From Lichina pygmaea (taxonomy: Eukaryota; Ascomycota; Lichinomycetes; Lichinales; Lichinaceae), in the NCBI GenBank assembly GCA_963422465.1, contig OY730169.1:3162001-3226000 (forward strand): a stretch of DNA of 64,000 bases, in the 5' to 3' direction. The position numbers and the translations under genes were made by a program. Below are positions 19,126-61,305 of this stretch, in pieces (position 1 is the stretch's first letter; every line of letters starts with the position of its first letter). The notes below the pieces were generated by a model, which searched no databases, had not been told where the DNA came from, and saw nothing but the letters and a program-made list of their open reading frames with translations.

Positions 19126-19719
19126 TGTTGCGGTCCGTACCGTACTGTCCTATCCGAGTATAGGATTAGGGCGAGAGGTGGAAGGCAGGTTGGTTCTCGC
19201 AGGAGAGGAGTGTCAAGGAGCGCGAAGGGGTTTGGTGGAACGTGGTGGTGGTGACACCTGATCAACAGCTTCGTACAAAAGGATTGTATTGAAGTAGATC
19301 TAGTTGTCTGGATCACAACATGAGTTGAAGACAATTGTTCCATAGGGGAACTATCACCGGACTATATAGTGCCCAGTTCGTGAGCAGAGTGAGCTCTGCT
19401 CACTTTGCTCACTTTTCATGCACGCTGCAGTGAGCTGGGTGAGCTCTGCTCACTTTGCTCACTTTTCATGCACGCTGCGGTGAGCTGGGTGAGCTCTGCT
19501 CACTTTGCTCACTTTTCATGCACGCTGCGGCGAGCTGGGTGAGCTCTGCTCACTTTGCTCACTTGTTTGTGTATATGCATGCTGCGGTGAGCACCCCCTG
19601 GTTTGTCTCACCGGTCACGTGACTGGTTCCCGTGTCACGCTGTCTGGTACTTCCATCCAGTATCCTGTCTGCTGCTTTCTGTGAGTATATAAAGACTGTG
19701 TTCCTCCTGGGTCGTAACA
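19126..19719 (-). repeat. A1 3' LTR (left)
   Basis: 594 bp; TGTTGCGG to GTAACA on the plus strand. Four tandem hairpin units lie between about 19,380 and 19,600; the first is a perfect 10-bp stem GTGAGCAGAG / CTCTGCTCAC with a 4-base loop. The palindrome ACTATATAGT (19361-19370) is the likely sense TATA. A second TATA (TATATAAAG, 19686-19694) points right, toward the antisense ORF. Confidence 0.93.
19686..19694 (+). promoter_or_regulatory. TATA box facing the antisense ORF of A1
   Basis: TATATAAAG lies 25 bp before the LTR end and 68 bp before the antisense ATG at 19763. A2 has a TATAAAT at the matching place (about 24,963) although the flanking LTR sequence differs, which suggests the box is kept for function. 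Confidence 0.5.
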
Positions 19720-19762: not shown

Positions 19763-20167
19763 ATGCCTCCAAAGTCACGTGCGACTGTTAGCCAAACTCA
19801 GCTGGCTGCTCAAATCTGTGATCAGGGTTTTGTTTCATGTACACCCTGTGACTTTTGTGTTCTCCGTGGTCGTCTGTGCTTCCAGATGCCAGGAGAAGAT
19901 GATAAGTTGAAATGTGCTGCGTGCACTCAGCGCGGAAGGTCTTGTGTCTCTGTGTCCTGGGAATCTTTGAACATGTTCCGGAACAACCTCTGTGAGGATG
20001 TTGCCGCTGACAAGGCAACACGCGATACACTCTTTGAACAACTTGCCACAGTACAGACTTGTCTGTCTTGGAAGCAAAAGGTGTTGGAGAGTGCTGAGGT
20101 CTGTGCGAGGCAGAAGCTTCAGTGCTTGGTGAAAGAGATGGAGTCGGATGGTGAGGATTTGACTTAA
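19763..20167 (+). CDS. antisense accessory ORF of A1: Zn2Cys6-spaced cluster plus coiled coil
   Basis: Reads opposite to A1 gag-pol, starting 44 bp inside the 3' LTR and stopping 4 bp short of the end of pol (tail to tail). It encodes 134 residues and looks whole. Cysteines 29, 32, 39, 51, 54 and 61 have the spacing C-x2-C-x6-C-x11-C-x2-C-x6-C, inside the range of fungal zinc clusters. A WESL segment and then a charged, heptad-like helix to about residue 125 follow. The layout suggests a small dimeric nucleic-acid-binding protein. The family is not one I can name; function is inference. Similar ORFs sit at the same place in A2, B1, B2, B3 and C1. Confidence 0.75.
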   Translation: MPPKSRATVSQTQLAAQICDQGFVSCTPCDFCVLRGRLCFQMPGEDDKLKCAACTQRGRSCVSVSWESLNMFRNNLCEDVAADKATRDTLFEQLATVQTCLSWKQKVLESAEVCARQKLQCLVKEMESDGEDLT

Positions 20168-20171
20168 TCAG

Positions 20172-23100: not shown

Positions 23101-24400
23101 TGCGGCTGGTAACAGGTCTGAGCTGTGTTGTTAGTGCAGTTCCTAAATGTGAGTACTCCTGTCTTCCAGTTAACAACTGGGTTGTGCTTCTTTAGCCAAG
23201 GTATCCCCAAATAGATATCCTGAGTGGCCAACTTGACAATATCAAGGTAGATCCTTTCAGCATAGTGTCCGGTAACCATTTCCATTGGCTGCGTCTTATG
23301 GCAGACTAGCTCTGTCTGTCCATTTGCCATCACGAGCTGATAGGGCTGCTGCTTGCGTCTTCTTCCAGTGCTGAGGGTATTGTAAAGTTGTCTTGAGATG
23401 TAGTTTCCACTGGCTCCAGAGTCAACAAGTGTGTATGTCCGTACTGGCGTGTTGGTGTGTAGTGACACAGGCAATCACAGGTGCTTTGTGTTGCTAGGGG
23501 TCATGTTGTTGAGCTCCCGATGTTGCCCCTTGACAAGGGAGTTCAGTCTTTTCCTGATCGAAGTGTCTTACCACTGACTGGGCAATGGGTCCAGCCATTC
23601 CCATCAGTTCTGAGGAATCCGTTCATGAATTTGTCTTGCTGATGCTTGTCACATCCAGGCTTGAGGCAGTACTGCCAATTGTCAACGTAGCAGTTGTAGT
23701 TGTTGCCTTGCTGTAGGAACATGAGGTGTTTGTGCCAATCATGTGTGTGTCCGGGGAATGCGGTGTGTTGGTGTTTGTCCCAAAGATGGATCTCACACAC
23801 ATCCTTCTCACAATTGACCCAATGCTTGTGGCAGGTGGTGTGGTAGGGTGAATGTCCTCCGTACCTTCGTAGTTGTTCGTGGTAGGTGCAGTAGTGCTTT
23901 GTGCAAAACCTCCACTGTAGTTCGCCGTGCTGTAGATTTCGTGGGTCCATGCTGTAAGCATAGCTTCCTTGTGGTATTTCTTCTTTGATAGACATGGGTT
24001 TGTCTTGGTCCCCATCAGAGGTGGTTAAGGGCTCCTGTCCCTTGTCCTGACCTATCTGTTCTGGTAGGTCCTTGCCTCCTGATGTTGCCAGTTGGTGGGC
24101 TGCTTCCAATGTCTGATCATAGTTGTCCTATTGTTCAAGGGATAGCTGAGCCTCTCCTGGTGGGTCCTCTGGCTTGATGACATTCCAGTCTCTGTCGAGT
24201 GTATTAAGTTGCTGTCAGTGCACCTTGTTCTTTGAACAACAGTCTTTCGCCATGTGGCCTAGCTTGCCACAGGCATAGCACTTCAGTGCTTTCCTCTTTT
24301 TGTTGTTCCTTCCCTTCATGAACCTTCCCTTGTGGTGGACTGCATCCAGTTCCATGGGTGCATAGCCATATGGGTCATGTGGCGGTGCCTTGTTAGGCAG
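20172..24400 (-). pseudogene. A1 pol and distal gag region
   Basis: On the minus strand from right to left: gag zinc knuckle (CYACGKLGHMAKDC, ~24,260), a Cys/His segment with three W-x2-C-x4-C-x2-H motifs (~24,010-23,600), protease (LVDSGASGNY, ~23,420), reverse transcriptase (~22,880-22,100), RNase H (TDTSDQAVGACL, ~21,930), integrase HHCC and core (~21,450-20,700) and a chromodomain ([17 protein letters not shown], ~20,290). Chromovirus architecture. Broken in several places. Confidence 0.9.
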
Positions 24401-24998
24401 TGTTGCGGTCCGTACCGTACCGTCCTATCCGAGTATAGGATTAGGGCGAGAGGCGGAAGGTGGGTTGGTTCTTGCAGGAGAGGAGTGTCAAGGAGTGCGA
24501 AGGGGTTTGGTGGAACGTGGTGGTGGTGACACCTGATCACGGCTTTGTACAAAGGATTGTATTGAAGTAGATCTAGTTGTCTGGATCACAACATGAGTTG
24601 AAGACGATCATTCCATAAGGGAACTATCGCCAGACTATATAGTGCTGGCCTGTCAAGACGATCGAGATTGTCTTGACAGTCTTGATGTCAAGACGGGTGA
24701 GATTGTCTTGACAGTCCCACCATGTTATGCACCCTGCGTCGAGACTGGTGAGATTGTCTTGATGCTTCATGCATCATGCGTCAAGACTGGTGAGATTGTC
24801 TTGATGCTTCATGCATCATGCGTCGAGACTGGTGAGATTGTCTTGATGCTTCATGCATCATGCGTCAAGACTCCTGTGTGTGTCTCGACAGTCACGTGAC
24901 CCCTTGTTGGTTGGTCACTTGACTTCCATGGTGTCCTCTTGCCTGGCCTGCGGCCTGATTGCCTATAAATGAGTGGCTCCTATCCCTGGGTCGTAACA
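24401..24998 (-). repeat. A2 LTR (3' LTR)
   Basis: 598 bp. The outer parts match the A1 LTR, but the middle is replaced by tandem units of about 45 bp (TCAAGAC...GTCTTGA), several with perfect 9-bp stems (for example 24651-24659 with 24670-24678). TTGAAGAC, whose complement is the 5' part of the RNA, is kept. Confidence 0.9.
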
Positions 24999-25042
24999 CT
25001 ACCCTCCTCTCCTTCATTCATCATCCCGATGAATTCTTGAGT

Positions 25043-25540
25043 ATGTCTGCAAAATCACGTGCCTCTGCTTACCGAAACCAACTGGCAGCCCAGATCTGTG
25101 ATCATAACTTTGTGTCACTTGCTCTGTGTGACTTCTGTGTTTTGAACCACAAGCCCTGCTTCCAAATGTCTGACGACAACGATAAGTTGAAGTGTGCTGA
25201 GTGCACTTGTCAGGGAAAGTCCTGTGTGTCACTTTCTTGGGAGTTGCTGAACATGACTCAGGATAACCTTCGCAAGGATTTGGCTGTCGATAAGGCTAAG
25301 CGGGATGCTCTTGTCAAGCAGCTTGCCGAGCTGCAGGCTCGTGTGTCCCAAAAGCGAAAGGTTCTTGAGGGTGCTGAGGGTTGAGCAAAGAAGAAGCTCC
25401 AGTGCCTTGTTGCTGAAATAGAGGCGGATGGTGAAGACTTGTCAGCGACAGTCATTGATGTGTCCGTGCTGCAGGCTGAGCTGTTCAGTCCTGCTCCTGC
25501 CAGAACTGCTGCAGGAGGAGCTGGCAGTTCGCGAGGTTCC
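25043..25540 (+). pseudogene. antisense accessory ORF of A2
   Basis: Homologue of the A1 antisense ORF at the same place and orientation, ATG at 25043, 44 bp inside the LTR. It keeps C-x2-C-x6-C-x11-C-x2-C-x6-C and the coiled-coil-like helix, with clear but diverged sequence. Broken near its end region. Confidence 0.75.
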
Positions 25541-25544
25541 TGAG

Positions 25545-30322: not shown

Positions 30323-30340
30323 CCTTGAGGGTCTTCAAAG

Positions 30341-30877: not shown

Positions 30878-30882
30878 TGTAC

Positions 30883-33700
30883 CACGCAAGATGCTGTGGG
30901 CAAGACTCAGGCACTGCAGTTGCCAAGTGAGTATAAAGAATACCAGGAGATGTTCGAAGAAACAGTGATTGTGACACTACCAGAACATCAGGAGTGGGAC
31001 TACAAGATTCCACTGGAAGATGGAAAAAAACCCACACATAGCTCTATCTATACTCTGTCAGCAAAAGAGCTTGAGGTCCTGAGAGATTACCTGGACAAGA
31101 ACCTAGCGAAAAGGTTCATAAGATCTTCAACATCACCAGCTGGATACCTGATATTGTTTATGCCAAAGAAAGATAGCAAACTTTGACTGTGTGTTGATTA
31201 TTGGCAGCTAAATGTGATCACAGTGAAAAATCACTACCCACTGCCATTGATATCAGAAATCCAAGACTGGATCCAAGAAGCCAAATAGTTTACCAAGTTT
31301 GATATTCAAGGCACTTTCAACCTGGTTAGGATGAAAGATAGCGAGGAATAGAAAACAGCTTTTTGTACAAGGTATGGGCACTACAAGTATACTGTGATGC
31401 TATTCAGTCTTACGAATACACTGGCAACATTCCAATCACTTATTAACACTGTCCTCTGATAATACCTGGATATATTTGTCACTGCTTACATCGATGATGT
31501 CTTGATATACACTAATGGAACCTTGGAGAAGTATAAACAGCATGTCAAAAAGATTCTACATGTGCTCCAGAAAGCAGGCATGAGGTTACACTTTGATAAA
31601 AGTGTTTTCCACACAAAGGAAGTGGAATATTTGGGGTTGATCCTGACAACAGAAGGAATCTGAATAGACAACACAAAAACTATAGTAGTGCAAGACTGGC
31701 CAACACCCAAAAACCTCAGAGAAGTACAATCCTTTTTGGGATTTGCAAACTTCTACTGACAATTCATCAAGGACTACTCAAGAACAGCAGCAGTCTTGAC
31801 AGAGTTAACCAGAAAGGAGGAACCTTTCAGGTGGGGGGAGAGCCAACAAGCAGTCTTCCAGGAGTTGAAGAATAAATTCATCTCCACACCTATTTTGGCA
31901 TCATTTGATTCTGAGAAGAGGATCATTCTGGAGACTGATGCCTCAGACCAAGCATTGGGATCCTGCTTGTGTCAACCAGACGCTGACAATTGCTTACACC
32001 CTGTCATGTATTGATCAAGAAAGTTCTCTGGCCCAGAACTGAAGTATGATATTCATAACAAAAAGCTGTTAGCAATTGTCAACACATTCCAAGAATAGAG
32101 GCCTTACTTGGAGAGGGCAAAATACATGGTAGACATGTACTCAGACCACAAAAACTTAGCTTACTTCACAACAACAAAGAAGCTAAACTGATAACAAGTT
32201 CAATGGGCAGAGTTGTTAGTATCATACAACTTTCAAATCCTCTACTGGAAGAGCACTGAAAATGCCTGAGCGGACACACTCAGCAGACGACCAGACCTGA
32301 TGGACAAGAAAACAACAGAGGAACACCCAATCCTAGCGACAAAAAAACAAACCTTGGTCTACACCCAACCCCAACTGGCAACAACTGAAACAAAGAGTCC
32401 ACTCCTTACTCTTGGCCACAAGATAGTAAACAAAAAGGAAATTGTGCCAGAAGAAGCACAAGAGGAGGTGATCTGAAGGCACCATGACAGGCCTTTGCAC
32501 AGACACTCTGGGTGAGATAAAACCTTGGAGAAAATCCAAAGGAACTACCACTTTGACAGAATAAAGTGCAAGGTGATGGAGTTTATTCACAACTGTGAAC
32601 AGTGTGCAAAGAACAAACCATCAAGACATAAGCCCTATGGGCAGGCACAGCAAATAGACCTACCTGAGGCACTATAGGAAACTATCATGATGGATTTTGT
32701 GGTCAAGTTGCCAAAGTCAACAGACTCAGCAACAAAGGTGGTATACAACAGTATTCTGGTAGTTGTTGATACACTCACTAAATACACTCACCTGGTCCCA
32801 TGGAAGAAGTCAGGAACTGCAAGCAAACTTGCAAGTGTCCTACTCAGAAAGCTGGTAAGCTATCAAGAGCTACCAAAAACAATCATCTCAGATCAAGACA
32901 AACTCTTCACCTTGAAATTCTGGAACATGTAGACAAGGCAACTTGGCATTGACACAAGGATGTTAACAGCCTACCACCCACAAACTGATAGACAAACTGA
33001 GCAAACAAACCAGATGATGGAGCAGTATCTACAACATTACATCAACCACCAGCAGGATGACTGGGTGGAACTGCTACCTATAGCCCAGTTTGCGTACAAT
33101 GACCAGCAACACAGCGTGACAGGGACAACACTATTCTTTGTGAACTACAGAAGAAACCCCCAATGGCAGGCAACAGCAGGAGGCAATGTTGTTGACATTA
33201 ACAAACTTGCTGCTATGCACAAGATAATGAAAACAACAATTGACTGTGCCCAGAACACCACTGCCCGCTGACTACATGACAAATGGTTGAAGAGACCAAC
33301 CCTGAAGAGGGAGGATAAGGTTTACCTATCAACAAAAAACCTGCGCTCAAAGTGACTGAGCAAAAAGCTGGATCATGTACAAATCAGACTATTCGAAATC
33401 AAGAAGTGCACTGGGAAAGTCAACTATCAACTGAGACTACCACAAAAAGCAAGGATACACCAAGTATTCCATGTCTCACTGTTGGAACCAGCACCCAGTG
33501 ATGCAGAGATCAAGACAGAATAGAACTTTGAGGACAACAAAGAAGAGTATGATGTTGAAAAGATCCTGGATAGTCAAAGGAACAGACAGAAAACTGAGTA
33601 CCTGGTGAAGTGGTTAGGATTTGACAAAGAGGAGAATTTGTGGGAACCAACTGAGAACTTCAGCCCTGTGATGAACCAGAAGCTGGTGGATTACCACTGA
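30883..33700 (+). pseudogene. B1 pol region (after A1)
   Basis: Reverse transcriptase (~30,950-31,700; TAYIDDVLIY near 31,490), RNase H (LETDASDQALGSCL, ~31,930), integrase HHCC (~32,490-32,620) and core (DFVVKLPKSTD, ~32,690; AYHPQTDRQTE, ~32,965) and a chromodomain (YLVKWLGF...WEPTENF, ~33,600-33,660). Many breaks. Confidence 0.9.
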
Positions 33701-34232
33701 GCAAACCCGCAGCAACCAGGTCTGACTGGGACAACAGCTCAAGAGAAGCCAAAGTCTCTGAAGAGAAGATGTCCTCAAAAGACAGCAGAGCAGCAGCCTG
33801 ACTGGCCTCCTGTTCACAAATAATGTGGAGAGTCTCTTGTTCTTGAGCATCAAGGGACTCTTGATCCTTGATGGCTGACAGCTTATGTTGGATAGCATCA
33901 GCCTTCTTCTGTGAGAGATAACCCAGCTGCCGGTGGAGACAGATCTGCTGGGGAAGCAACTTTGATAATTAATCATCAGTCTTCCGCAGCTGAGCTTTGA
34001 GCTGCTCACACTTAAGTTCCATCTTCTTCTATTCTGATTCTGAGAGATGAAGGTTGCAGCAACAACCCTTCATGATGTACTGACTACAGGAAGTTGATGT
34101 GGAACTAACAACACACTTAGTGTGGTCATGATGACAAGCACTGCATGCAATTTTTGATTCCTTGCCTATTTTGCCAATGTGACAAGAGAGAGAACTGCGA
34201 CAACAAGTACAAGTTGTCTGATCTCGGTTCAT
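33660..34232 (-). pseudogene. antisense accessory ORF of B1
   Basis: Opposite strand to B1 pol, starting 60 bp inside the 3' LTR and overlapping the end of pol by about 40 bp. It encodes the Cys-rich N-terminus and coiled-coil-like helix seen better in C1 (55413-55943). Broken. Confidence 0.75.
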
Positions 34233-34291: not shown

Positions 34292-34704
34292 TGTTAAGGC
34301 CTAGGCTGGAACAGCCTAGGTAAGTGAGGGAGGTGTGTTAGTCATACAGAACAACATCTGACCAACCAGTGGACAAGCAGGAGCTAAGCGAGGAGCTTGA
34401 CTGGTGGACAAGCAGGAGCTAAGCGAGGAGCTTGACTGGTGGACAAGCAGGAGCTAAGCAAGAAGCTTGACCACGCAAAAGAATGATACCTCTCAAGGAA
34501 GACCCCCCCTCTCAGGCATCTGTATAAAGACTACCCCAAAAGCCCAGAGGGATTACCTCTCCAGGCTGAACACATTGTATAAGACTAATAGTACAGAGAG
34601 AGTTACCTACCTGTCTATTTATCTATCAAGTCCCTGTCCAGAATCCACCCTGCGAAGCAACAGACTGTACCAGTTTCTGTGTGAACCCGGCCTGGCCTTT
34701 AACA
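34292..34704 (+). repeat. B1 3' LTR
   Basis: 413 bp, preceded by a purine tract (GGAGGGAGAGGATAG) and followed by the duplication AGACC. Compared with the 5' LTR it has lost most CpGs by transition. Confidence 0.95.
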
Positions 34705-38943: not shown

Positions 38944-40741
38944 TTTCTGAGCTTTTTGAAGAATAATTCTCTGGTACTTATACTAGTGGAGTTTTGCATC
39001 CAGGTACACTCCTAATACTCACACTTCTTCTTTTGGTCTTAGAATCATATTCCCCAGTCTGAGCTTAAGCTGAAGATTGTCTGATCTTCTTCTGGAAAAA
39101 TAAAGTATTTTATATTTCTCAGGAGAGAAGACTATTCTATGTCTTGCAGTCTATGATAGATATTTGAGGTGTGTGTTCTTCAACTTCAGGAGGTTGCTTT
39201 TTAGAGAGTGTCCAAATACAAGCAGATTTGTATTATCTGCAAATCCCAGAGCAGAAACACCAGTAGAAGAAGAGTGTACAGTTTCATGAAGTTCAGAAAT
39301 GTAAAATAGAAACAGAATAGAAGATAAAAAGAAAACTTGAGAAACTCCACAGTGAATAGGAATAGCAGAAGACTCAGAGTCATCAAACACAAGAGTGGTA
39401 GAACAACTGGTGCAGAAAGAGAGAATCCAGGAAGATAGCCAGAGAGGAATTCTTTTTCTCTCTAGGATTTGTTGGAGGATCTTAGGTAGAACTCTGTCAT
39501 AGACTTCTGAGATATCCAGAGAAAGTAGAGATGCAACCATGCTTTCCTTCCAGACTTTTTCCACTTGGGAAGTTAGTAGGAAGAGTGCTGATTCAGTTGA
39601 TCTTTCTTTCCTGAAGCCCATCTGGATTTCTGGCAAAAGTCTAGCTTCTTCTGCTACCTTGCTTAGCCTGGTTACTGTAATAGCTTCCATCAGCTTGCCA
39701 GTTGTGTTTAGCAAAGCTATAGGGCACCAGACTTTAGCTTGGTTATAGTATTCTTTACCAGGTTTTCTTAGACAGACTGTTTTTGCATTCTTGAACCTCT
39801 CTGGAAAGTATTCCAGTCTCCAGCATGTTGATGTGAGAACAGCCATAGCTTGGCAGAACTTAGAACTCAGAGCTTTCAGAAATCTATTTGGCAGCTTATC
39901 TTTTCCTCCTGCTGTGAAAGATTTCTTCTTATTCAGGATTTGTTCCACTTCTTCAGCAGTAACTTCCTGAGAGAGCTGGATCTCTGGAGTACTCTGGGAA
40001 CTCTCTGTACTTGGTTCTGGAACAAGTGCTTTGGGGAAGAACTGGACTCAGAATACTTTTATCTTCTCAAAAGTTTTAGCTAGTCTTTCTTGAGTTTCCA
40101 AATCTGGGACCAGGGAAAGATCAGAAGTCCTGTTGGCTTTTGTTTTTCCCCACTTTGCAAGCTTCCAGAATTTTGAAGAACTGGCTAGCTTATAGACTTG
40201 TTATCTGAAGGTGGTCTGCTTTCTCTCTCTGACTGCTTTTTTCTTGTTCTTAGTTGCTTGCTCAAAGTCTTCTTGGGATGTCTGTCCTCTGAGAACTTGT
40301 CTTCTTACTCTTCTTTCCTCTCTAGTCTTGTTTTAGATGTCTTGGTCCCACCAGAGAACTGAGTGACCAGATTACTTCTGGAGCTGTGTACATTTGCTTG
40401 CCACTTCTTGGAGAAAGTTGTCCAGATACTCCAAGTACTTATCCACTTCATCTTTGTCTTGAAAGTGGGAAGGTAGCTGTAGCTTCTCACACTCTACTCT
40501 TGCAAGGTTTGAGTCCAGTGTCTTCCAGTTCCTTTCTGGCTTCCAGGTTTTCCTTGGAGGATCCAGGTCTAGACTAGTTAGTATGGGTCTGTGGTCAGAC
40601 CCATGAAAGAACTAGAGAGCCACTTTAGAGAAAATAAGAGCCACAGTCATACTATGCCAGAACATAGTGTAGAGTTGGCACCCCCCCACAGAGTCTCTAC
40701 CACACTTTCCCACAGTCCCAAGATCTCTTGCACTCTGCTGT
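38944..40741 (-). mobile_element. LINE-3: inverted, 3'-truncated Tad-like LINE
   Basis: Minus-strand ORF2 remnant. Best-kept part is 39,948-39,151: QILNKKKSFTAGGKDKLPN, VWCPIALLNTTGKLMEA, MGFRKERSTESALFLL, LGFADNTNLLVFG. The catalytic FADD reads FADN. It ends at 38,944 against the LTR fragment, so the thumb and 3' end are missing. To the right it reaches the endonuclease SDHRP motif near 40,600. Several stops lie outside the best-kept part. Confidence 0.85.
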
Positions 40742-41233
40742 ACATACTCACCCCTATTAGTCTGGCAAGTTTTCTTTTCAGAGCTGGAGTTCCTGACTTC
40801 CCTACCCCACTATGTGTGTGTGACCAAGCAGAAGAAACTGCAAAACATATCACCTCTTCATGCTCTCTTTATTCAAGACAAAGACAACAAGTCTTTTTTA
40901 ATCCCCAAGACTTCACCACTATTATTTCAAACCCAGAGCTACTACAGAAGTTCTTGTGCTGGTTTATGTTTTTGAAAAGACTAAACCAGTTTAATCTAGC
41001 TTTCAAACTCCACTATTCCCAATCCAATACCTAGATTCTCTTCTCTTACCAGAAACTTCAAGATTTCTTTTGTTACATTCCCTAGTCACACCCTGCCTTC
41101 AGTTTTTATCTCTTCAAAGGTTTTCTGAAGAAGTTCACTATTAGCTAGAAGATCTGCATGGCTGTAAAGCTACTACCAGTGTAAGAATCAAATCAAATCA
41201 AAAAAAAAATCAAAAAAAAACATGCTCACCTCT
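40742..41233 (+). mobile_element. LINE-4: short 5'-truncated LINE-1-family copy with target duplication
   Basis: The 464-bp insertion (40756-41219) nearly matches the last 450 bp of LINE-1 (about seven differences). It includes the Cys/His C-terminus, the 3' UTR and an A-rich tail. It is flanked by imperfect 14-bp duplications, ACATACTCACCCCT (40742-40755) and ACATGCTCACCTCT (41220-41233). This is a typical truncated LINE insertion and shows that LINE-1-type elements moved fairly recently. Confidence 0.88.
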
Positions 41234-49100: not shown

Positions 49101-49900
49101 TCTGGAATACATAGACAAGGCAACTTGGCATTAACACAAGGATGTCAACAGTCTACCACCCACAAACTGATGGACAAACTGAGTGAACAAACCAGATGAT
49201 GGAGTAGTATCTACAATATTACATCAACCACTAGCAGGATGACTGGGTGGAACTGCTACCCATAGCCCAGTTTGTGTACAACAACCAGCAACACAGTGTG
49301 ACAGGGACAACACTGTTCTTTGCGAACTACAGTAGAAACCCCTGATGGCAGGCAACAGCAGGAGGCAATGTTGTCAATGTTAACAAACTCACTGCTATGC
49401 ACAAGATGATGAAAACAACAATTGACTGTGCCCAGGACACCACCACCCACTGATTACATGACAAAAGGTTGAAGGGACTAACCCTGGAAAAAGGGGATAA
49501 GGTCTACCTATCAACAAAAAACCTGCACTCAAAGTGACCAAGCAAAAAGCTGGACTATGTACAAATCAGACTATTCCAAATCAAGAAGTGCAATGGGAAA
49601 GTCAACTATCAACTGAGACTACCACAAAAAGCAAGGATACACCAAGTATTCTATGTCTTGCTGTTGGAACCAGCACCCAGTGACGCAGAGATCAAGACAG
49701 AATAGAACTTCAAGGACAACAAAGAAGAGTACAATGTTGAAAAGATCCTGGATAGTTGAAGGAACAGACAGAAAACTGAGTACCTGGTGAAGTGGTTAGG
49801 ATTTGATGAAGAGAAGAATTTGTGGGAACCAACTGAGAACTTCAGCCCTGTGATGAACCAGAAGCTGGTGGATTACCACCAAGCAAACCCACAGTAACCA
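46121..49900 (+). pseudogene. B2 linker, protease and pol region
   Basis: W-x2-C-x4-C-x2-H (WKVCEDNHCKEH, ~46,265), protease (~46,600-46,760), reverse transcriptase (~47,110-47,830), RNase H (~47,980-48,430), integrase (~48,640-49,480) and chromodomain (YLVKWLGF, ~49,790). Many breaks. Confidence 0.88.
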
Positions 49901-50414
49901 GGTCTGACTGGGACAACAGCTCAAGAGAAGCCAAAGTCTCTGAAGAGAAGATGTTCTTGAAAGACAGTAGAGCAGTAGCCTGACTGGCCTCCTGTTTGTG
50001 AATAACACAGAGAGCCTCTTGTTCTTGAGTATCAAGAGACTCTTGATCCTTGATAGCTGACAGCTCATGTTGGATAGTGTAAGTCTTCTTCTGTGAGAGA
50101 TGACCCAGCTGCTGGTGGAGACAGATCTGCCAGGGAAGTAACTTTGATAATTGATTATCAGTTTCCCGCAGCTGAGCTTTGAGCTACTCACACTCAAGTT
50201 CTATCTTCTTCTATTCTGATTCTGAGAGATGAAGGTTGTAGTGACAACTCTTCATGATGCACTAACTACATGAAGTTGATGCAGAACTAACAACACACTT
50301 AGTGCAGTCATGATGACAAGCACTGCATGTGATTTTCAATTCCTTGCCTATTTTGCCAATGTGATAAGAGAGAGAACTGTGACAACAAGTACAAGTTGTC
50401 TGATCTCAGTTCAT
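49850..50414 (-). pseudogene. antisense accessory ORF of B2
   Basis: Same place and orientation as in B1, beginning 60 bp inside the 3' LTR and running back over the end of pol. The Cys-rich and coiled-coil parts are recognisable. Broken. Confidence 0.7.
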
Positions 50415-51439: not shown

Positions 51440-52021
51440 ACTTTTTGTTATAAACTGAGATCAGACAACTTGTACCTATTGTCACAGTTCTCTCTCTTGT
51501 TGTGTTAGTAAAATAGGCAAGGAATCAAAAATTACATACAGTGCTTGTTATTGTGACTGCGCTAAGTGTGTTGTTAGTTCTGCATCAACTTCCTGTAGTC
51601 AGTGTATTGTGAAGGGTTGTTGCTGTGACCTTCATCTCTCAGAATCAGAATGGAAGAAGATGGAACTTGAGTGTGAGCAGCTTGAAGCTCAGCTGCAGGA
51701 GACTGATAATCAATTGTCAAAGTTGCTTCCCTGGCAGATCTGTCTCTGCTGACAGCTGGGTTGTCTCTTACAGAAGGAGGCTGATGCTATCTGATATGAG
51801 CTGTCAGTCATCAAGGATCAAGAGTCTCTTGATACTCAAGAACAAGAGACTCTCTGTGTTATTTGTGAATAGGAGGCCAGTCAGACTACTGCTCCACTGT
51901 CCTTCAAGAACATCTTCTCTTCAGAGGCTTTGGCTTCTCTTGAGCTATTGTCCCAGTCAGACCTGGTCACTGCAGGTTTGCTTGGTGGTAATCCACCAGC
52001 TTCTGGTTCATCGCAGGGCTG
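51440..52021 (+). pseudogene. antisense accessory ORF of B3
   Basis: Convergent with B3 pol. The Cys-rich segment (~51,470-51,640) and the coiled-coil part (~51,640-51,870) align with C1. Broken. Confidence 0.72.
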
Positions 52022-54947
52022 AAGTTCTTGGTTGGTTCCCACAAATTCTCTTCTTTGTCAAATCCTAACCACTTCACCAGGTACTCAGTTTTCTGTCTGT
52101 TCCTTCAACTATCCAAGATCTTTTCAACATTGTACTCTTCTTTGTTGTCCTTGAAGTTCTATTCTGTCTTGATCTCTGCGTCACTGGGTGCTGGTTCTAA
52201 CAGCAAGACGTGGAATACTCAGTGTATCCTTGCTTTTTGTGGTAGTCTCAGTTGATAGTTGACTTCCCCAGTACATTTCTCAATTTCGAATAGTCTGATT
52301 TGTATGTGGTCCAGCTTTTTGCTCAGTCACTTTGAGTGCAGGTTTTTTGTTGATAGGTAGACCTTATCCCCCCTCTTCAGGGTTGGTCTCTTCAATCTTT
52401 TGTTATGTAATCAGCAGGCAGTGGTGTTCTGGACATAGTTAATTGTTGTTTTCATCATCTTGTGCATAGCAGCAAGTTTGTTAACATCAACAACATTGCC
52501 TTCTGCTGTTACCTGCTATTGGGGGTTTCTTCTGTAGTTCGCAAAGAATAGTGTTATCTCTGTCACACTGTGTTGCTGGTTGTTGTACACAAACATGGCT
52601 ATTGGTAGCAGTTCCACCCAGTCATCCTGCTGGTGGTTGATGTAGTGTTGTAGATACTGCTCTATTGTCTGGTTTGTTCACTCAGTTTGTCCATCAGTTT
52701 GTGGGTGGTAGACTGTTGACATCCTTGTGTTAATGCCTAGTTGTCTTGTCCACATGTTCTAAAATTTCAAGGTGAAGAGTTTGTCTTGATCTGAGATGAT
52801 TGTCTTTGGTAGCTCTTGGTGGCTTACCAGCTCTTTGAGTAGGACACTCGCAAGTTTGCTTGCAGTTCCTGACTTCTTCCATAGGACCAGGTGGGTGTAT
52901 TTGGTGAGTTTGTCAACAACTACCAGAATACTGTCATATACCAACTTTGTTGCTGAGTCTGTTGACCTTGGCAATTTGACCACAAAATCCATCATGATAG
53001 TTTTCCATGGTACCTCAGGTAGGTCTATTTGCTGTGCCTGCCTATAGAGCTTATATCTTGATAGTTTGTTCTTTGCACATTGTTCGCAGTTGTGAATAAA
53101 CTCTGTCACCTTACACTTCATTCTGTTGAAGTGGTAGTTCCTTTGGATTTTTTCCAAGATTTTATCTTGTCCAGGGTGTCTGTGCAAAGGCCTGTCATGG
53201 TGCCTCTGGATCACCTCCTCTTGTGCTTCTTCTAGCACAGTTTCCTTTTTGTTTACTATCTTGTGGCCAAGGGTAAGGAGTGGACTCTTTGTCTTGGTTG
53301 TTGCCAGTTGGGGTTGGGTGTAGACCAAAGTTTGTTCTTTTGTCACTAGGATTAGGTGTTCCTCTGTTGTCTTATCATCTATTAAGTCTGGTTGTCTGCT
53401 GAGTGCATCCACTTGGACATTCTTGGTGCTCTTCCAGTAGAGGATTTGAAAGTTGTATAATGCCAACAACTCTGCCCATCAAACTTGTTATCAGTTTAGC
53501 TTCTTTGTTGTTGTGAAGTAAGCTAAGTTCTTGTGGTCTGAGTACATGTCTACTGTGTATTTTGCCCCCTCCAAGTAAGGCCTCCATTCTTGGAATATGT
53601 TAACAATTGCTAACAGCTTTTTGTTGTGAACATTATACCTCAGTTCTGGGCCAGAGAACTTTCTTGATCAATACACAACAGGGTATAAGTGATTCTTGGC
53701 GTCTGGTTGATACAAGCAGGATCCCAATGCTTGGTCTGAGACATCAGTCTCCAGAATAATTCTCTTCTCAGGATCAAATGATGCCAGAATAAGTGTGGAG
53801 ATGAATTTATTCTTCAACTCCTGGAAGGCCACTTTTTGGCTCTCCCCCCACCTGAAAGATTCCTCCTTTCTGGTTAACTCTGTCAAGGCTGCTGCTGTTC
53901 TTGAGTAGTCCTTGATGAATTGTCAGTAGAAGTTTGCAAATCCCAAAAAGGATTGTACTTCTCTGAGGTTTTTGGGTGTTGGCCAGTCTTGTACTGCTGT
54001 AGTCTTTGTGTTGTCTATTCAGATTCCTTCTGTTGTCAGGATCAACCCCAAATATTCCACTTCCTTTGTGTGGAAAACACTTTTATCAAGGTGTAACCTC
54101 ATGCCTGCTTTCTGGAGTGCATGTAGAATCTTCTTGATATACTGTTTATACTCCTCCAAGGTTCCATTGGTGTATACCAAGATGTCATTGATGTAGGCAG
54201 TAACAAATATATCCAAGTATTGTCAGAGGACAGTGTTAATAAGTGATTGGAATGTTGCTGGTGTATTCGTAAGACTGAATAGTATCACAGTATACTTGTA
54301 GTGCCTGTACCTTGTACAAAAAGCTGTCTTCCATTCTTCACTGTTTTTCATCCTAACCAGGTTGAAAGCACCTTGAATATCAAACTTGGTAAACTATTTG
54401 GCTTCTTGGATCTAGTCTTGGATTTCTGATATCAATAGCAGTGGGTAGCAATTCTTCACTGTGATTGTATTTAGCCACCAGTAATCAATACACAGTTGAA
54501 GTTTGCTGTCTTTCTTTGGCACAAACAATATCAGGTATCCAGCTGGTGATGTTGAAGGTCTTATGAACTCTTTCACTAGGTTCTTGTCCAGGTAGTCTCT
54601 CAGAGCCTCAAGCTCTTTTGCTGACAGAGTATAGATAGGGCTGTGTGTGGGTTTTTTTCTGTCTTCCAGCAGAATCTTGTGGTCCCACTCCTGATGTTCT
54701 GGTAGTGTCATGATCACTGTTTCTTTGAACATCTCCTAGTATTCTTTATACTTATTTGGCAACTGTCGTACCTGAGTCTTGCCCACAGTGTCTTGCGTAG
54801 TGCAAAGTTGTTGGGTTCAGAGCTTCATCCAGGCCACACAGGCCTGCCCACACCAGTGGTGTTTCTTCCACCATGTCAGTGAGATCTCTTTAATTGTCAC
54901 CCCTGGTTCTGACATGACCAGTGTTTTGTCCAGAAAGACTAGTTGCC
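52022..54947 (-). pseudogene. B3 pol region
   Basis: From right to left: reverse transcriptase (~54,740-53,990), RNase H (LETDVSDQALGSCL, ~53,740), integrase HHCC and core (~53,230-52,690; DFVVKLPRSTD near 52,980) and chromodomain (~52,170-52,040). Broken. Confidence 0.88.
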
Positions 54948-55360
54948 TGTTAAAGGCCAGTCCATGTTCACACAGAATGTGGGTGGTCCTGTCTTCGACT
55001 GAGGAGGGCAGGGACTCAATAGATGAATAGCAAGTGGGGTAACTCTCTTGCTATTGTCGCTCGTAATGTGTGTTCAGCCTGGAGAGCTATTCTCTCCGGC
55101 TATCTGGGTTCTTATATACAGGAGCCTGAGGGGGGGGGGTCCTCCCGAGGGGTATCAGCTTTCTGCGTGGACAAGCTGGACGAGCTGGTTACACATCGTC
55201 CACCTTGTCCACCGGGTCGGGTGAACATTGTTCCTGTGGACAAGCTGGACAAGCTGGTTACACATCGTCCACCTCGTCCACCAGGTTGGGTGAACATTGT
55301 TCCGTGTACCTCTGTACACTTGCTTCAGTCAGCTCAGCCGTTCCGGCCTGGGCCTTAACA
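54948..55360 (-). repeat. C1 3' LTR (left)
   Basis: 413 bp. Two tandem units of about 70 bp; the first holds the perfect stem GTGGACAAG (55167-55175) / CTTGTCCAC (55204-55212). The antisense ORF starts 53 bp beyond it. Confidence 0.95.
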
Positions 55361-55412: not shown

Positions 55413-55943
55413 ATGACCCAGACATCTTGTGTTAATTGTCGTGGAGTCCTCAGTTCTCGTGTTGGCAAGATGGGCAAGGTATCCAAAGTTTCATGCAGCG
55501 CATGTCGTCGTGACCGTGCCAAGTGTGTCGTCAGTTCAGAGTCCACATTTTGCGGTCAGTGCCTTGAGAAGAGTCGCTGTTGCGATCTCCATCTTGCGGA
55601 GTCGGAGTGGGAGAAGATAGAGCTTGAGCGCACTCAGCTCAAGGCTCAACTGAAGGAGATCAAGGAGCAGGAGTCCGTTCTCCTTCCTCGCAAACTTCGT
55701 CTCCGTCGTCAGTTGGGTGTGTTGTCCAAGAAGGAGGGTGAGGCCATCAAGTGTGAGCTTGCTGCGATCGAGGATCAGGAGGATCTCAAGCAGGAGGCTA
55801 CATGTGTGGAGTCCCCGCCGCCTTTGGAGGACTTCTTCTCTTCGGAGGCTTTGGCTTCTCTCAAGCCTTTGTCTCCATCAATCCTGGCTTCTGCGGGTTT
55901 TGTCAGTGGAAACTCCGCAGTTTCTTGTTTGTCGCAGAGCTGA
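55413..55943 (+). CDS. antisense accessory ORF of C1: Zn2Cys6-like cluster plus coiled coil
   Basis: Best copy of the accessory gene: 176 residues, looks whole. It starts 53 bp inside the 3' LTR, on the strand opposite gag-pol, and overlaps the last 41 bp of pol, within the end of the chromodomain-bearing frame. Cysteines 28, 31, 38, 47, 50 and 57 read C-x2-C-x6-C-x8-C-x2-C-x6-C, and the first loop is basic (CSACRRDRAKC), as in Gal4-type zinc clusters. An extra CVNC pair lies upstream (6, 9). A long charged helix with heptad character (SEWEKIELERTQLKAQL onward to about 135) follows, then an acidic, Ser-rich tail. Predicted to dimerise and bind nucleic acid; role unknown. Not a gag, pol or env product. 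Confidence 0.8.
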   Translation: MTQTSCVNCRGVLSSRVGKMGKVSKVSCSACRRDRAKCVVSSESTFCGQCLEKSRCCDLHLAESEWEKIELERTQLKAQLKEIKEQESVLLPRKLRLRRQLGVLSKKEGEAIKCELAAIEDQEDLKQEATCVESPPPLEDFFSSEALASLKPLSPSILASAGFVSGNSAVSCLSQS

Positions 55944-58620
55944 AGTTCTCGGTGGGTTCCCACGAGTTCTCCTCATTGTCATACCCTAACCACTTGACCA
56001 GGTATTCAATTTTCTGTCTGCTTCTCCGGCTGTCTAGGATCCTTTCGACATCGTACTCTTCTTCATCATCCTCAAAGTGCCATTCTGTTTCGATTGCTGC
56101 GTCGCTGGGTGCTGGCTCAAGCAGTGAGACATGGAATACTCGGTGTATCTGTGCTTTTTTTGGCAGTCTCAGTCGGTAGTTGACTTCTCCAGTACGCTTC
56201 TCAATCTCAAACAGTCCGATTCGTACATGATCCAGCTTTTTGCTTGGTCGCTTCGAGCGCAGGTTTTTTGTTGACAAATAGACCTTATCCCCCCTCTCCA
56301 GGGTTGGTCCCTTCAACCTTTTGCTGTTTAGGCGGTGGCTTGTTGTCTTTTGTGCAGATTCAATTGCAGTCTTCATTTCCTTATGCATAGCAGTGAGTTT
56401 TTCGATGTTTGTTGAAGTGCCACTTCCAGCCGCCATCACTTCCCAGCGGGGGTTTCTGCCGTAGTTCGCAAAGAACAGTGTCATGCCCGTCACGCTGTGT
56501 TGCTGATCGTTGTACGCAAACTGAGCCATTGGTAGCAGTTCTACCCAATCGTCCTGTCGGTGGTTGACGTAGTGGCGTAGGTACTGTTCCATCGTCTGGT
56601 TTGTTCTCTCAGTTTGTCTGTCTGTTTGTGGATGGTAGGCAGTAGACATCCTCGTGTCTATCCCTAGCTGTCTTGTCCACGTGTTCCAGAATTTTGAGGT
56701 GAAGAGTTTGTCTTGATCCGAGATAATCTTCGTGGGTAGCCCTTGCTGGCTAACCAATTCTTTGAGCAGGACATTGGCGAGTTCGCTCGCTGTTCCTGTC
56801 TCTCGCCACAGGATCAGGTGAGCGTATTTGGTGAGTTTGTCAACAACCACCAAGATACTGTCATATTTCACCTTTGTTACCGGGTCCTCTGACCTCGGCA
56901 GCTTCACCACAAAATCCATTGTGATGGTATCCCAAGCCGCTTCTGGGAGGTCTATTTGTTGACTCTCTCCATAGGGTTTGTGGCGTGACAGTTTGTTTTT
57001 CGCACACTCTTCGCAGTTGCGAATAAATTCCGTCACTTTCCGCTTCATTCTGTTGAAGTGGTAACATCTCCGGATCTTTTCCAGGGTCTTGTCTTGCCCA
57101 GGATGTCCGTGTAGAGGTCCATCGTGATGTTGTCGAATCACGTCCTCTTGTGCACTCTCTGGCACTTCTTCCTTGTTCGTGGCCGCAACGTTGTGGCCTA
57201 GGGTCAGGAGTGCACCCATTTCTTCAGTTCTCGCTAACTGAGGTTGAGCATAGACCAGAGTTTGTCCTTTTGTCACCAGGATTGGGCACTCTTCTGTCGT
57301 GTCGTCTGTCGTCATATCAGGTCGCCTGCTAAGCGCGTCTGCTCGTGCGTTTTCTGATCCTTTTCGATAGAAGATCTGGAAGTCGTATGAAGCTAAAAGC
57401 TCTGCCCATCAGACTTGTCGTCTGTTTAGCTTCTTCGTTGTCGTGAAGTAAGCCAAGTTCTTGTGGTCTGAGTACACGTCCACTGTGTACTTTGCTCCTT
57501 CCAGGTAAGGTCTCCACTCCTGGAATGCGTCGACAATCGCTAACAACTCCTTGTCGTGAACATCGTACCTGAGTTCTGGGCCAGAGAACTTTCTTGATCA
57601 GTATGCGACAGGGTGTAGGCGGTTTTCGGCGTCTGGTTGACACAAGCAAGATCCAAGTGCTTGGTCTGAGGCATCTGTCTCCATGATGATCCGCTGTCCG
57701 GGATCAAATGATGCCAGTATGGGTGCGGAGGTGAACTTCTCTTTCAGCTCCTGGAACACTCTCTCTTGGCTGTTCCCCCATGTGAAGGTTTCTTTCTTCT
57801 TTGTTAGTTCAGTCAAGGGTGCTGCTGTCCTCGAGTACTCCTTGATGAATTGTCGGTAGAAGTTCGCAAATCCCAGGAAGGATTGGACTTCTTTGAGGTT
57901 TTTGGGTGTTGGCCAGTCTTGTACTGCCGTGATCTTTGTATTGTCCATACAGATTCCTTCCGTCGTCAGGATCAATCCCAAATATTCCACTTCTTTCACG
58001 TGGAAGACGCTCTTATCAAGGCGTAACCTCATTCCTGCTTCTTGGAGCACATGTAGGATCTTCTTGACATGCTGTTTGTGCTCCTCCAGGGTTCCATTGG
58101 TGTAAACCAAGACATCGTCGATATAAGCGGTAACAAATATATCCAGGTATTGTCGGAGGATGGTGTTAATAAGCGATTGGAACATCACCGGTGCATTCGT
58201 AAGGCTGAATGGCATAACAGTATACTTGTAATGCCCGTACCTTGTACGAAAGGCTGTCTTCCATTCTTCACCATCTTTCATCCTAACCAGGTTGAAAGCG
58301 CCTCGGATGTCAAACTTGGTAAACCACTTGGCTCCTTGGATTCAGTCCTGGATTTCCGATATTAACAGTAGTGGGTAGCGATTCTTAATCATGATTGCAT
58401 TAAGCTGCCGGTAGTCGACACACAGTCGTAATTTGCTGTCTTTCTTTGGCACAAACAATATTGGGTATCCGGCCGGTGATGTTGAAGGTCTTATGAACCC
58501 TTTCGCTAGGTTCTCGTCCAGGTAATCTCTTAAGACCTCAAGCTCCTTTGCTGATAGGGCGTAGATAGGGCTATGTGTGGGTTTCTTTCTGTCTTCCAGT
58601 GGAATTTTGTGATCCCACTC
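55903..58620 (-). pseudogene. C1 pol region
   Basis: From right to left: reverse transcriptase (~58,600-57,850; YIDD at 58,125-58,114), RNase H (METDASDQALGSCL, ~57,680), integrase HHCC (~57,130-56,970) and DDE core (DFVVKL ~56,920; SDQDKLF ~56,735; AYHPQTDRQTERTNQ ~56,640) and a chromodomain (EYDVERILDS...YLVKWLGY...SWEPTENF, ~56,080-55,930). The last 41 bp overlap the antisense ORF. Few breaks. Confidence 0.93.
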
Positions 58621-60854
58621 TTGGTGTTCTGGTAGCGTCACGACCGCTTCCTCACCAAACATCTCCTGGTAATCTTTATACTCACTTGGCAGCTGCGGTG
58701 CCTGAGTCTCGCCCACAGTGTCATGCGTGGTGCAAAGTTGATGGTTTTGGGGCTTCATCCAAGCCACATAGGCTTGCCCTCGCCGGTGGTGCTTCTTCCA
58801 CCCTGCATATGAGATCTCTTTGATTCTCACTTTCTCTGGCTCTGCTCGAGTTGCCAGACTCCTCTTCAGAAAGACTAGGTGCCTTCTTTTCCAGTTGATC
58901 CTTGGGTTTTGACTTTCCAACCACGGAAGACCCAATATAACTTCATGTGGTATCTGGACCAAGTCGAATTCTTCTGATCTGATTGTCGTACTGTCGACAC
59001 ACAGTCGTAGGTTCTTGGTCTCCTTCGTCACTTGTCCTTGGTTGTTGGAGAGTGGTGTCCCGTCCACTACTGTTAGTTGGTATGGATTCCTCTTTTCCTG
59101 AGTCGGGATCTTGTGCTTCCTGGCGAAACTTTCTGACATGAAGTTGCCAGTAGCTCCAGAGTTGATCATGGTGTTTGTCAGATGCCTGTTGACTCTCATC
59201 CTGATGTGAAAATGCGGACTGCAGGCTGTCGCGTCGAGGCTCTGCTCAACCCCTTCTCTCCGGAGTGTTGTCTTGCCTGCTCTTCCGACTCCGGATTTGA
59301 AGAGCACTGCTAGTTTTTTGAACAACCAAGGCCCTGAGCCTGGCGTTCTGCCGCGTGTCTTTCGCATTTTTCGGTGAAGCATAGCTCCCATGCGTCTTCT
59401 CCGCAATCATCGTGTTCTTTCCCTTGCTGGCTTAGCTGGTGCTTGATGCTCCAGGCTTTCTTGTGGTATTCTGGGCCAGGGAAGTAGTGCCTTCTCCTTT
59501 TCTCTAGGAGATGTTCCTTGCAGTGGTGGTCCTCACATCCTTTCCAATAAGGACGTCCGCAGGCTGGTGTCGTAGCCTGGTGAAGGTCCACTTGCGCTGC
59601 GATGTCTCGGGGCTGTGAGATGCTGATGGTGTCGTCCACCCATCGTGTCACTCTTGCTTCGCTGTCCTCCGACAAGGTCACATCCTGTCGTCAGAGTAGT
59701 GGTGTCTCGGGAACTGGTGGCATGCCGGTTATGTCAATCTCGTAGTCTGTTGTGTCGAATTCGGAGATCAGGTCATCCTCCCAATGAACCTTATTGATCT
59801 GGTCTTGGATTGTGTGCAGGTCCTCCAGTGACCTCTGCAGATTGTTCTCCAGTCTTTCGATGTGCTGTCTGAGATTGTCCTCCTGTCCGAGGAGTGTTGC
59901 TTCTGACCGGTTCATGGGTAGCATGCCTCTGGGAGCTCTTGGTGGCTCCTGAATGCCCTTGCCTTTCCAGGCACTGGTGGTATTCAACTGCTTACCCTTG
60001 CCTTCCTTCTTCTTCTTGCTTTGGCAGTTGGCTGCGAGGTGTCCTACCTTCTGGCAATTGTAACACTTCCGTGTTTCTTTCTTCTTTGTTGCCTGTGGTG
60101 TTGTTGCATCAATCTCCATGGGTGTCAAGCCGTACTTGTCTTGTGCTGGCGCTGTCTTTTTGCCCCATGGCCTTGCATGCTTGCCTCACTTCTTGAGTTC
60201 TTGTTTGAACTGTCAGTCGTCGATGTGTACCGCTGTGTCAATCATATCCTCAAGGTCGGTGGGTCGGTCTCCTCGTGCGATATCATCCTTGACTCGTTCC
60301 TTGAGAGCTTGGTAGAATAGTGCTGTCAAGGCACTGTCTCCCCATTGTGTTCTCACTGACAACTGTTGGAACTTCGCCGCGAAGTCTGATGCTGACCCTG
60401 TCTGCCGTAGTGCTTGGAGCTTTTGTTCTGCATCTCGTTCTTCATCAATGACCCCGAAGGTCTTCTTCATCTGGGTCTTGAAGGTAGAGAATCTCCCAAT
60501 GATCTGCCGTGTTGTGGTCTCCATGCTAGAGGGATCTTCCTTGTTGTCGAGGAAGTCTTGTAGGTAGACATTGAACCAGGCAAACATCAGTCCATCCAGG
60601 TAGGAAGCTGCGAACAGCACCTTCTCCTGTTCCGTAGGGAATTGTGCGGCGTTGAATCCGTAGTAAAGCTCAAGCTGAGAGAAGAATAATTCCAATCCCC
60701 CTCGTGATCTATCGTACCTCTTCGGCGTACCTACCTTCAACGGCTTTGGAGGTAAGGTGAGGGTGGTAGGGACAGGTGGTTCCTGGGCTTGCGCCTGAGG
60801 CACAGCCCGAGCTTGGCCTGCCTGCGAAGGGGTAGGGCTGCGTGGATCTGCCAT
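58621..60854 (-). pseudogene. C1 gag, linker and protease region
   Basis: Gag starts MADPRSPTPSQAGQ at 60854, with a capsid-like domain (LELFFSQLELYYGFNAAQF) and the knuckle CYNCQKVGHLAANC near 60,060. The linker carries WKGCEDHHCKEH (~59,545) and [12 protein letters not shown] (~59,390). The protease active-site region lies near 59,170, then [14 protein letters not shown] near 58,930. Few breaks. Confidence 0.9.
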
Positions 60855-60892
60855 CGTATTGAGCCGGTGTTCTATGTGTTAGAGGCTGAAAC

Positions 60893-61305
60893 TGTTAAAG
60901 GCCAGTCCACGTTCACACAGAATGTGGGTGGTCCTGTCTTCGACCGAGGAGGGCAGGGACTCAATAGATGAATAGCAAGTGGGGTAACTCTCTTGCTATT
61001 GTCGCTCGTAATGTGTGTTCAGCCTGGAGAGCTATTCTCTCCGGCTATCTGGGTTCTTATATACAGGAGCCTGAGGGGGGGGGGTCCTCCCAAGGGGTAT
61101 CAGCTTTCTGCGTGGACGAGCTGGACAAGCTGGTTACACATCGTCCACCTTGTCCACTGGGTCGGGTGAACATTGTTCCTGTGGACAAGCTGGACGAGCT
61201 GGTTACACATCGTCCACCTCGTCCACCAGGTCAGGTGAACATTGTTCTGTGTACCTCTGTACACTTGCTTCAGTCAGCTCAGCTGTTCCGGCCTGGGCCT
61301 TAACA
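60893..61305 (-). repeat. C1 5' LTR (right)
   Basis: 413 bp. The sense TATA (TATATAAG on the minus strand, ~61,064-61,057) is 39 bp upstream of AGGCTGAA (minus strand of 61018-61025). That segment is complementary to the primer site two bases inside the element (60883-60890). Confidence 0.95.

Follow-up and report, generated by a model that had tools for sequence, protein, structure and literature searches.

An antisense gene lies between pol and the 3′ long terminal repeat (LTR) of C1, a chromodomain-bearing Ty3/gypsy element in a 64,000-nucleotide stretch of the Lichina pygmaea genome (contig OY730169.1, positions 3,162,001 to 3,226,000; hereafter the window). It is a protein-coding gene that is under purifying selection between element families. 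The gene encodes a six-cysteine module with the spacing of fungal Zn2Cys6 clusters, and counterparts of four types (A1, A2, B, and C) each accompany a tandem array of their own in the unique 3′ (U3) region of the LTR, with gene and array passing between elements as a block. The family-specific dyad arrays in U3 and their linkage to the gene lend strong indirect support to a regulatory role, and we hold with moderate confidence that the antisense gene and the U3 dyad array constitute a self-specific regulator/operator cassette of chromodomain Ty3/gypsy elements.

In C1 (54947-61305, minus strand), the antisense gene occupies 55413..55943 on the plus strand, where an open frame of 176 codons encodes a Zn2Cys6-like module, a long helix, and an acidic-hydrophobic tail. 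Its ATG is 52 bp from the inner edge of the 3′ LTR, and its 3′ end overlaps the end of pol (57315..55903, minus strand) by 41 bp; this place, the strand opposite pol, and the overlap are as described in an earlier note on this DNA, and the antisense frames that the note reported in five other elements are present as well. Frame analysis places them at 19763..20167 (A1, plus strand), 25043..25540 (A2, plus strand, with one internal stop), 33660..34232 (B1, minus strand, decayed, with two internal stops), 49850..50414 (B2, minus strand, decayed), and 51440..52021 (B3, plus strand, decayed). Both the C1 and the A1 frames had been taken as whole. C1 is indeed whole, the sole one of the six, and A1 is truncated by a TGA at codon 135. 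Comparison of 30 A1-like copies found the same TGA in 26 and a gene of 166 codons in the remaining 4, so the shortened form may itself have been amplified. Across 19763-20264 and these 30 copies, stops recur at codons 11, 105, 135, and 164, mostly as TGA, suggesting C-to-T change at CGA codons.

Hundreds of elements in the genome, which comprises 32.47 Mb in 8 contigs, carry the antisense gene. All copy counts given here are lower bounds, drawn from the best 150 matches per query. The C1 protein had at least 150 matches, 61 of them C-type (86-100% identity) and 89 B-type (56-68%), and among the matches listed 53 of the 61 C-type copies are without a stop; the A1 and A2 proteins likewise had at least 150 matches each. 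A further type, P0044, had no close copy in the genome among the matches listed (best, 66% identity). The possibility of a chance frame is ruled out by the at least 150 copies and by the remaining five frames of the C region, which contain 2.4 to 6.8 stops per copy (30 copies). The claim that every LTR element with a visible 3′ end carries the gene is borne out at 98 of the 100 best C/B-type pol ends (of 150 listed), where an antisense match converges on pol (59 of C type, 39 of B type); this genome-wide test took in C/B-type pol ends, and other LTR families may lack the gene. The two pol ends without a match may have a decayed gene or a match beyond those listed.

Comparisons between families show constraint on the encoded protein. 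Between 30 C and 14 B copies, nonsynonymous divergence (dN) is 0.24-0.27 and synonymous divergence (dS) 0.61-0.89, for a dN/dS of 0.27-0.44 depending on transition weight; restricting the count to the 72 codon columns that are fixed within each family gives a ratio of 0.39, and for A1 versus A2 (30 and 10 copies) the ratio is 0.18-0.33. In the C-B comparison the zinc part is the most constrained (at a weight of 3, dN 0.16 and dS 1.15 for the zinc part, 0.25 and 0.81 for the coil, and 0.27 and 0.55 for the tail), and between A1 and A2 the zinc part is looser than the coil (dN/dS of 0.17-0.42 versus 0.08-0.19). The corresponding values for C1 pol against B1/B2 are 0.11-0.23 in the integrase block and 0.22-0.43 toward the end. 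Within families, divergence consists mainly of transitions, many at CpG, and the decay of A1-like copies is strongly CpG directed. Once adjusted for this transition/CpG spectrum, the within-family nonsynonymous/synonymous ratio is 0.99-1.00 for C, 0.80 for A1-like copies, and 0.55 for B (14 copies, picked as open). In the same C copies pol has a ratio of 0.84 (28 of 30; L014 and L031 were left out because their pol is not alignable in frame). Because the C-family gene and pol are alike in this respect, the within-family signal is largely decay after insertion. The earlier note had regarded a neutral dN/dS as telling against a functional gene: the ratio is about 0.99 within C and well below 1 between families. 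We therefore set aside the explanation of a neutral relic, given that pol is nearly neutral in the same C copies and that constraint is seen between families. The between-family ratios, together with cysteines common to the A and B/C types, uphold the proposal that the gene has long been retained in divergent families.

Fungal binuclear clusters have the spacing C-x2-C-x6-C-x5-12-C-x2-C-x6-8-C. The antisense proteins conform to it, with C-x2-C-x6-C-x8-C-x2-C-x6-C in C1 and a middle gap of x11 in A1, as had been read from the letters. The C1 module covers residues 28-57 (55494..55583, plus strand); its cysteines are invariant in a nine-sequence alignment of A and B/C types, and each is kept in 28-30 of 30 C, 14 of 14 B, 29-30 of 30 A1-like, and 10 of 10 A2-like copies. 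An AlphaFold2 model of C1 contains a short helix for each CxxC and then one long predicted helix at residues 63-132 (55599..55808, plus strand), with block means of the predicted local distance difference test of 90-96 over residues 71-120. This agrees with the charged helix that the earlier note placed after the cysteines, and it is likely the dimeriser. Comparison of the C1 model with known structures returned entries for HAP1, Pho7, PPR1, GAL4, and Leu3, all with low Z scores. A search of PDB sequences with C1 alone returned only HAP1/CYP1 (E, 0.74-0.89); profile searches of PDB returned coiled coils and other weak rows, with CYP1 and HAP1 at E values of 3.3 and 4.9, and the A-type profile found GAL4 at an E value of 2. 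Pfam had no match at an E value of 0.1 for the C1 or A1 antisense protein, and none to the basic leucine zipper (bZIP) in the antisense proteins, which have the six-cysteine module instead. The encoded protein is probably a small, dimeric, Zn2Cys6-like DNA-binding protein. Two A-type proteins, P0015 and P0114, also have weak similarity to DUF3716 (E, 0.055 and 0.084), of which the genome contains 9 matches above the cut-off, and this domain may be related to these six-cysteine modules. A-type relatives occur in other sources (P0096, P0100, P0107, P0114, P0117, P0119, P0123, and P0129), several of them on short contigs. All six cysteines are kept in the five that span the whole module (P0096, P0100, P0114, P0119, and P0123), and the tail motif is found in several relatives but not in all.

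In U3, each type of LTR carries a distinct tandem array, with the sense TATA-like box on one side of it and the antisense gene on the other. The array of C1 (55167..55306) is made of two 69-bp units that contain GGAC(G/A)AGC sites together with inverted GTCCACC sites. In the A1 3′ LTR (19126..19719, minus strand; ends approximate), the unit is 50 bp, with four GTGAGC-n3-GTGAGC-n3-GCTCAC-n3-GCTCAC dyads (0-1 mismatch) at 19380..19562. In the A2 3′ LTR (24399..24985, minus strand; ends likewise approximate), the unit is 42 bp, with six TCAAGAC-n10-GTCTTGA dyads (0-1 mismatch) at 24653..24888, and B1 has 35-bp units at 34369..34471, the unit containing CTCGTCC-n3-GGACGAG in fresher B copies. C1 has a sense TATA-like box at 55112..55118 (minus strand), and each of the 30 C copies likewise has a single one. 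The A types additionally have an antisense-directed TATA box, which in A1 (19686..19693, plus strand) stands 77 bp before the ATG (-77 in 29 of 30 copies and -75 in 1) and in A2 (24964..24970, plus strand) 79 bp before it (-79 in 9 of 10 other copies and -80 in 1); thus, all 40 A copies have one at 75-80 bp.

The association of array type with gene type was without exception in the copies compared, which for A1-like, A2-like, and C were among the best matches to the window genes and for B were chosen for open frames; up to 3 mismatches were allowed for the A1 dyad and up to 2 for A2 and B, and C motifs were matched exactly with C/T or G/A at CpG. The A1 dyad occurs in 30 of 30 A1-like copies (3-6 times in 29 and once in L062) and in 0 of 10 A2-like copies, all of which have 5-7 matches to the A2 dyad, itself found in 0 of 30 A1-like copies. 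All six B copies have 2-4 B dyads and no C motifs. The tandem GGAC(G/A)AGC motif is present in 30 of 30 C copies and the inverted GTCCACC motif in 29, with B, A1, and A2 dyads in none of the 30. Shuffled windows contained means of 0 to 0.2 A1, A2, and B dyads (five shuffles, preserving single-base composition only), and the window itself contains 13 A1 (up to 5 mismatches), 7 A2, and 1 B, the last number being low because the B copies of the window are decayed. The A1-like copy L062, with its one A1 dyad and six GTGGAC sites upstream, was considered as an exception to the pairing and rejected, since the GTGGAC sites belong to an element inserted in the A1 LTR that has a C-like gag and LTR half and a B-type array. 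Elsewhere in the window, a divergent A-like LTR at 38662-38944 (73-83% identity in parts) has kept the GTGAGC dyad core (two matches with one mismatch) in an array whose unit differs.

Identity profiles along the LTR and gene reveal how these pairs are exchanged. Five A2-like and six A1-like copies, picked mainly for open genes, were compared as 30 pairs in 100-bp bins; the bin at -699 to -600, the first, is outside the LTR and was left out, identity there being 54-60% whichever types were compared. The LTR half before U3 is 95-97% identical between the two types, matching the within-type level, and identity then drops, to 56-61% in U3, to 65% ahead of the gene, and to 67-71% over most of the gene, with 80% at the gene end; within each A type the same bins are 92-99% identical. 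Between A1 and A2 of the window, the pol end is 77-88% identical, and from about 20566 up to 20985, where the comparison stops, identity is 92-95%. The B copy L098 and C1 are 89-100% identical over the first 160 bases, 47-78% through U3, and 87-88% over the final 80 bases, up to and at the start of the gene. Among the 39 B-type genes at the 100 best pol ends, 32 are on pol ends that are 87-93% identical to C1 (protein) and the remaining 7 are on pol ends that are 79-82% identical, with the C elements' own pol ends at 86-97%. At the nucleotide level, the pol ends of five B copies on C-like backbones match C1 at 93-94% of positions (89-91% of third positions), three older ones, two of which adjoin listed B genes, match it at 81-82% (69-75% of third positions), and the B genes are 70.8-71.8% identical to the C1 gene in all 14 copies. 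L103 (G000:C6:3094085-3094600) joins a C-type LTR half and sense TATA box to a B array and B gene, and the 5′ LTR of the element inserted at L062 is a mosaic of the same kind, with a C-type half and a B-type array. The A1/A2 profile and the B/C mosaics thus show that array, gene, and at times pol end move as a block, and these identities indicate that the B block has moved onto C-like backbones. In reverse transcription, the RNA 3′ end supplies the U3 of both new LTRs, and R and U5 come with the 5′ end. Accordingly, one switch in or near the pol end carries everything from that point through U3.

The loop between the second and third cysteines varies along with the sites. It is near-identical in B (RRDHAK, 12 of 14) and C (RRDRAK, 18 of 30), which have a common GGAC(G/A)AG half-site in different arrangements, and it differs between A1-like copies (VLRGRP in 12 of 30, with near variants in the rest) and A2-like copies (VLNHKP in 10 of 10), whose half-sites differ as well. 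In Zn2Cys6 factors, the cluster reads the half-site, and the linker and coil set the spacing. The pattern in B/C and A1/A2 fits this division of labour.

From these observations we infer a regulatory circuit in which transcription would enter the antisense gene from the 3′ LTR and the protein, as a dimer, would bind the arrays in LTRs of its own family, including the 5′ LTR array upstream of the sense TATA box, with the bound protein setting transcription of the element. As the gene adjoins U3, one template switch in or near the pol end would swap regulator and operator together and keep the pair matched. The acidic, hydrophobic character of the C-terminal tail tips the balance slightly toward activation or anti-silencing and away from repression. 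CpG-directed decay and three DNA methyltransferase matches in the genome make anti-silencing, like that by the VANC proteins of plant transposons, a good candidate, and autorepression would be compatible with the anatomy of the element. It is possible, and we suggest it tentatively, that these are heteroimmune-style cassettes swapped between near-identical backbones, such that each lineage would control, activate, or un-silence only its own kind and a new cassette would found a new specificity.

Several observations weigh against a regulator/operator cassette of this kind. The proteins score below the cut-off for PF00172 (Zn_clus), the best reaching 14.9 versus 21 bits (P0001; E, 0.028), and 5 of the 10 proteins scanned have no match to it; for this reason, we name the protein Zn2Cys6-like and do not file it as a member. 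For A1, the zinc part of the model is of poor quality and a Foldseek search with the model gave no chain, and homology between A and B/C is weak (hhalign E values of 0.011 and 7.9e-4, with probabilities of 3.7% and 24.7%). The N-terminal 25 codons are barely constrained between C and B (dN, 0.38; dS, 0.44). The tail is missing in most A1-like copies (26 of 30), which weakens the idea of an activation domain. A TATA box at the antisense position occurs in 0 of 30 C copies (one match, at -417 in L013), and the array sites differ from classical CGG triplets. Finally, adjacency by itself would keep array and gene linked in a passive way. That last point is the core of an alternative we consider unlikely, in which the arrays are slippage products or sites for host factors, the gene has an unrelated role, and the two are transferred jointly by reverse transcription. 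The block boundaries are indeed what one template switch would move, and plant Retand elements have family-specific tandem repeats near their 3′ ends whose function is given as unknown in the accessible part of the source (PMC11963269). Passive linkage does not readily account for dyads that are kept in the units despite varying array length (3-6 in 29 of 30 A1-like copies), for the dyad core retained in the divergent A-like LTR at 38662-38944, or for the parallel differences in zinc loop and half-site.

The protein could instead act in the replication cycle, by binding DNA in the pre-integration complex, in nuclear entry, or in chromodomain integration targeting. In maize, the antisense product of Grande is reported to be nuclear, and roles of this kind have been proposed, to judge from the accessible part of PMC7264820, and the chromodomain-bearing pol end is in or beside the exchanged block (77-88% identity between A1 and A2 of the window). 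A replication role leaves unexplained why type-specific dyad arrays stand in U3 between the sense TATA box and the gene, and we give it a low probability. A further alternative, that the antisense RNA is the agent and forms double-stranded RNA with pol that feeds host silencing, appears very unlikely: the host has Piwi-family matches at two loci and roles of this sort are discussed in the part of PMC7264820 at hand, but the encoded protein is under purifying selection between families and the coding overlap with pol is just 41 bp in C1. That the gene is a recently captured fragment of a host gene, carried as a passenger, is highly improbable, for although the host genome also contains Zn2Cys6 genes (27 matches), the antisense gene exists in at least two divergent types with common cysteines, its between-family dN/dS is well below 1, and it has relatives in other sources.

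The cassette reading that we prefer has partial parallels in other systems. Zhao et al. (2011, Virology 417:248) reportedly described an antisense gene, brtn, in Boty-like Ty3/gypsy elements of Botrytis cinerea. An antisense gene between pol and the 3′ LTR is thus known in fungi, and Boty resembles C1 as a fungal chromodomain element with such an extra gene, as far as the accessible parts of the sources extend (PMC7264820, PMC8365987, PMC4227169, PMC5987419). The suggestion that a zinc-cluster-like antisense gene had not been described was therefore too wide with respect to fungal antisense genes; of the zinc-cluster type, we found no description in a search that covered few subscription papers. 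Plant Grande gene23, RIRE2, and Retand TRP28 are similar in place, in orientation, in their presence in most copies, in suspected DNA binding, and in having family-specific tandem repeats nearby, and the function of the plant and fungal genes beside the 3′ LTR is listed as unknown in the portions available (PMC7264820, PMC11963269). In Retand in particular, TRP28 is encoded in antisense and predicted to bind DNA, and tandem repeats specific to each family are present, according to the accessible part of PMC11963269. The plant proteins differ in having TRP28 in place of a Zn2Cys6-like module, the repeats of Retand are between pol and the LTR rather than in U3, and joint transfer of gene and repeat as a single cassette was not found reported for the plant antisense ORFs (open reading frames) in the available portions of these sources (PMC7264820, PMC11963269).

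A further parallel is with the VANC proteins of Arabidopsis VANDAL transposons, which are paired with rapidly diverging tandem motifs and specific to their own families, and for which motif binding and loss of methylation have been demonstrated, as set out in the available parts of PMC5735166 and PMC10398659. As there, an element-encoded factor is combined here with family-specific tandem motifs, the arrays being candidate targets; VANDAL elements, as those parts describe them, are not retroelements, their protein is a different one, and their motifs are in introns and upstream regions. HBZ of human T-cell leukemia virus type 1 is an antisense gene served from the 3′ LTR that encodes a nuclear factor with a coiled-coil dimeriser, and it resembles the present gene in its position and in the dimeriser, predicted in our case, but it has a bZIP rather than a six-cysteine module, and we know of no family-specific operator cassettes for it. 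HAP1, PPR1, Pho7, and GAL4 are similar in cysteine spacing, perhaps in predicted fold, in the helix after the cluster, and in dyad-like sites nearby, whereas the proteins studied here are element encoded, about 134-190 residues long, and below the Pfam cut-off, and their arrays lack classical CGG triplets. In the immunity regions of lambdoid phages, regulator and operators are exchanged as a block between otherwise near-identical genomes; the likeness is in the block exchange, the proteins and life cycle being unrelated. A literature search that covered few subscription papers turned up no description of an antisense gene of the zinc-cluster type, of a link between such a gene and U3 dyad arrays, or of the exchange of gene and array as a cassette, and on element-encoded autoregulation via U3 repeats it gave nothing to the point. 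Likely binding sites, a module with well-studied DNA recognition, four natural variants, and natural recombinants occur together here, and the function is therefore directly testable by DNA-binding assays. A position beside U3, where regulator and operator would be inherited as a block through reverse transcription, offers a possible reason for the odd place and orientation of the gene. If true, the cassettes would be to LTR retrotransposons what VANC anti-silencing is to VANDAL transposons and immunity regions are to phages.

From about 16.5 kb on, the window consists largely of nested elements, mostly Ty3/gypsy. C1 is inserted within B3, the two parts of which are on either side of it. Its LTRs (3′, 54947..55360; 5′, 60892..61305; both minus strand) are 414 bp each and 97.3% identical, and by Pfam it encodes gag, a CCHC knuckle, protease, reverse transcriptase, integrase, and a C-terminal chromodomain, with the integrase and chromodomain in the pol end at 55903..57315 and the frames for the other parts at 57598..60854, all on the minus strand. 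The A elements form a chain at 19126-30878 of A1-type LTR, A1 internal region, A2-type LTR, A2 internal region, and A1-type LTR (30341-30878), which looks like a tandem or recombinant arrangement. Frames for an endonuclease and a reverse transcriptase at 15871-16572, 35621-37009, and 39154-39846 resemble those of non-LTR elements, and the segment 36734-37186 is repeated at 40756-41208 with 97.4% identity. Ahead of the repeat-rich part are host genes for an Aha1-type Hsp90 co-chaperone and a cyclin (1105-2305 and 8425-9864).
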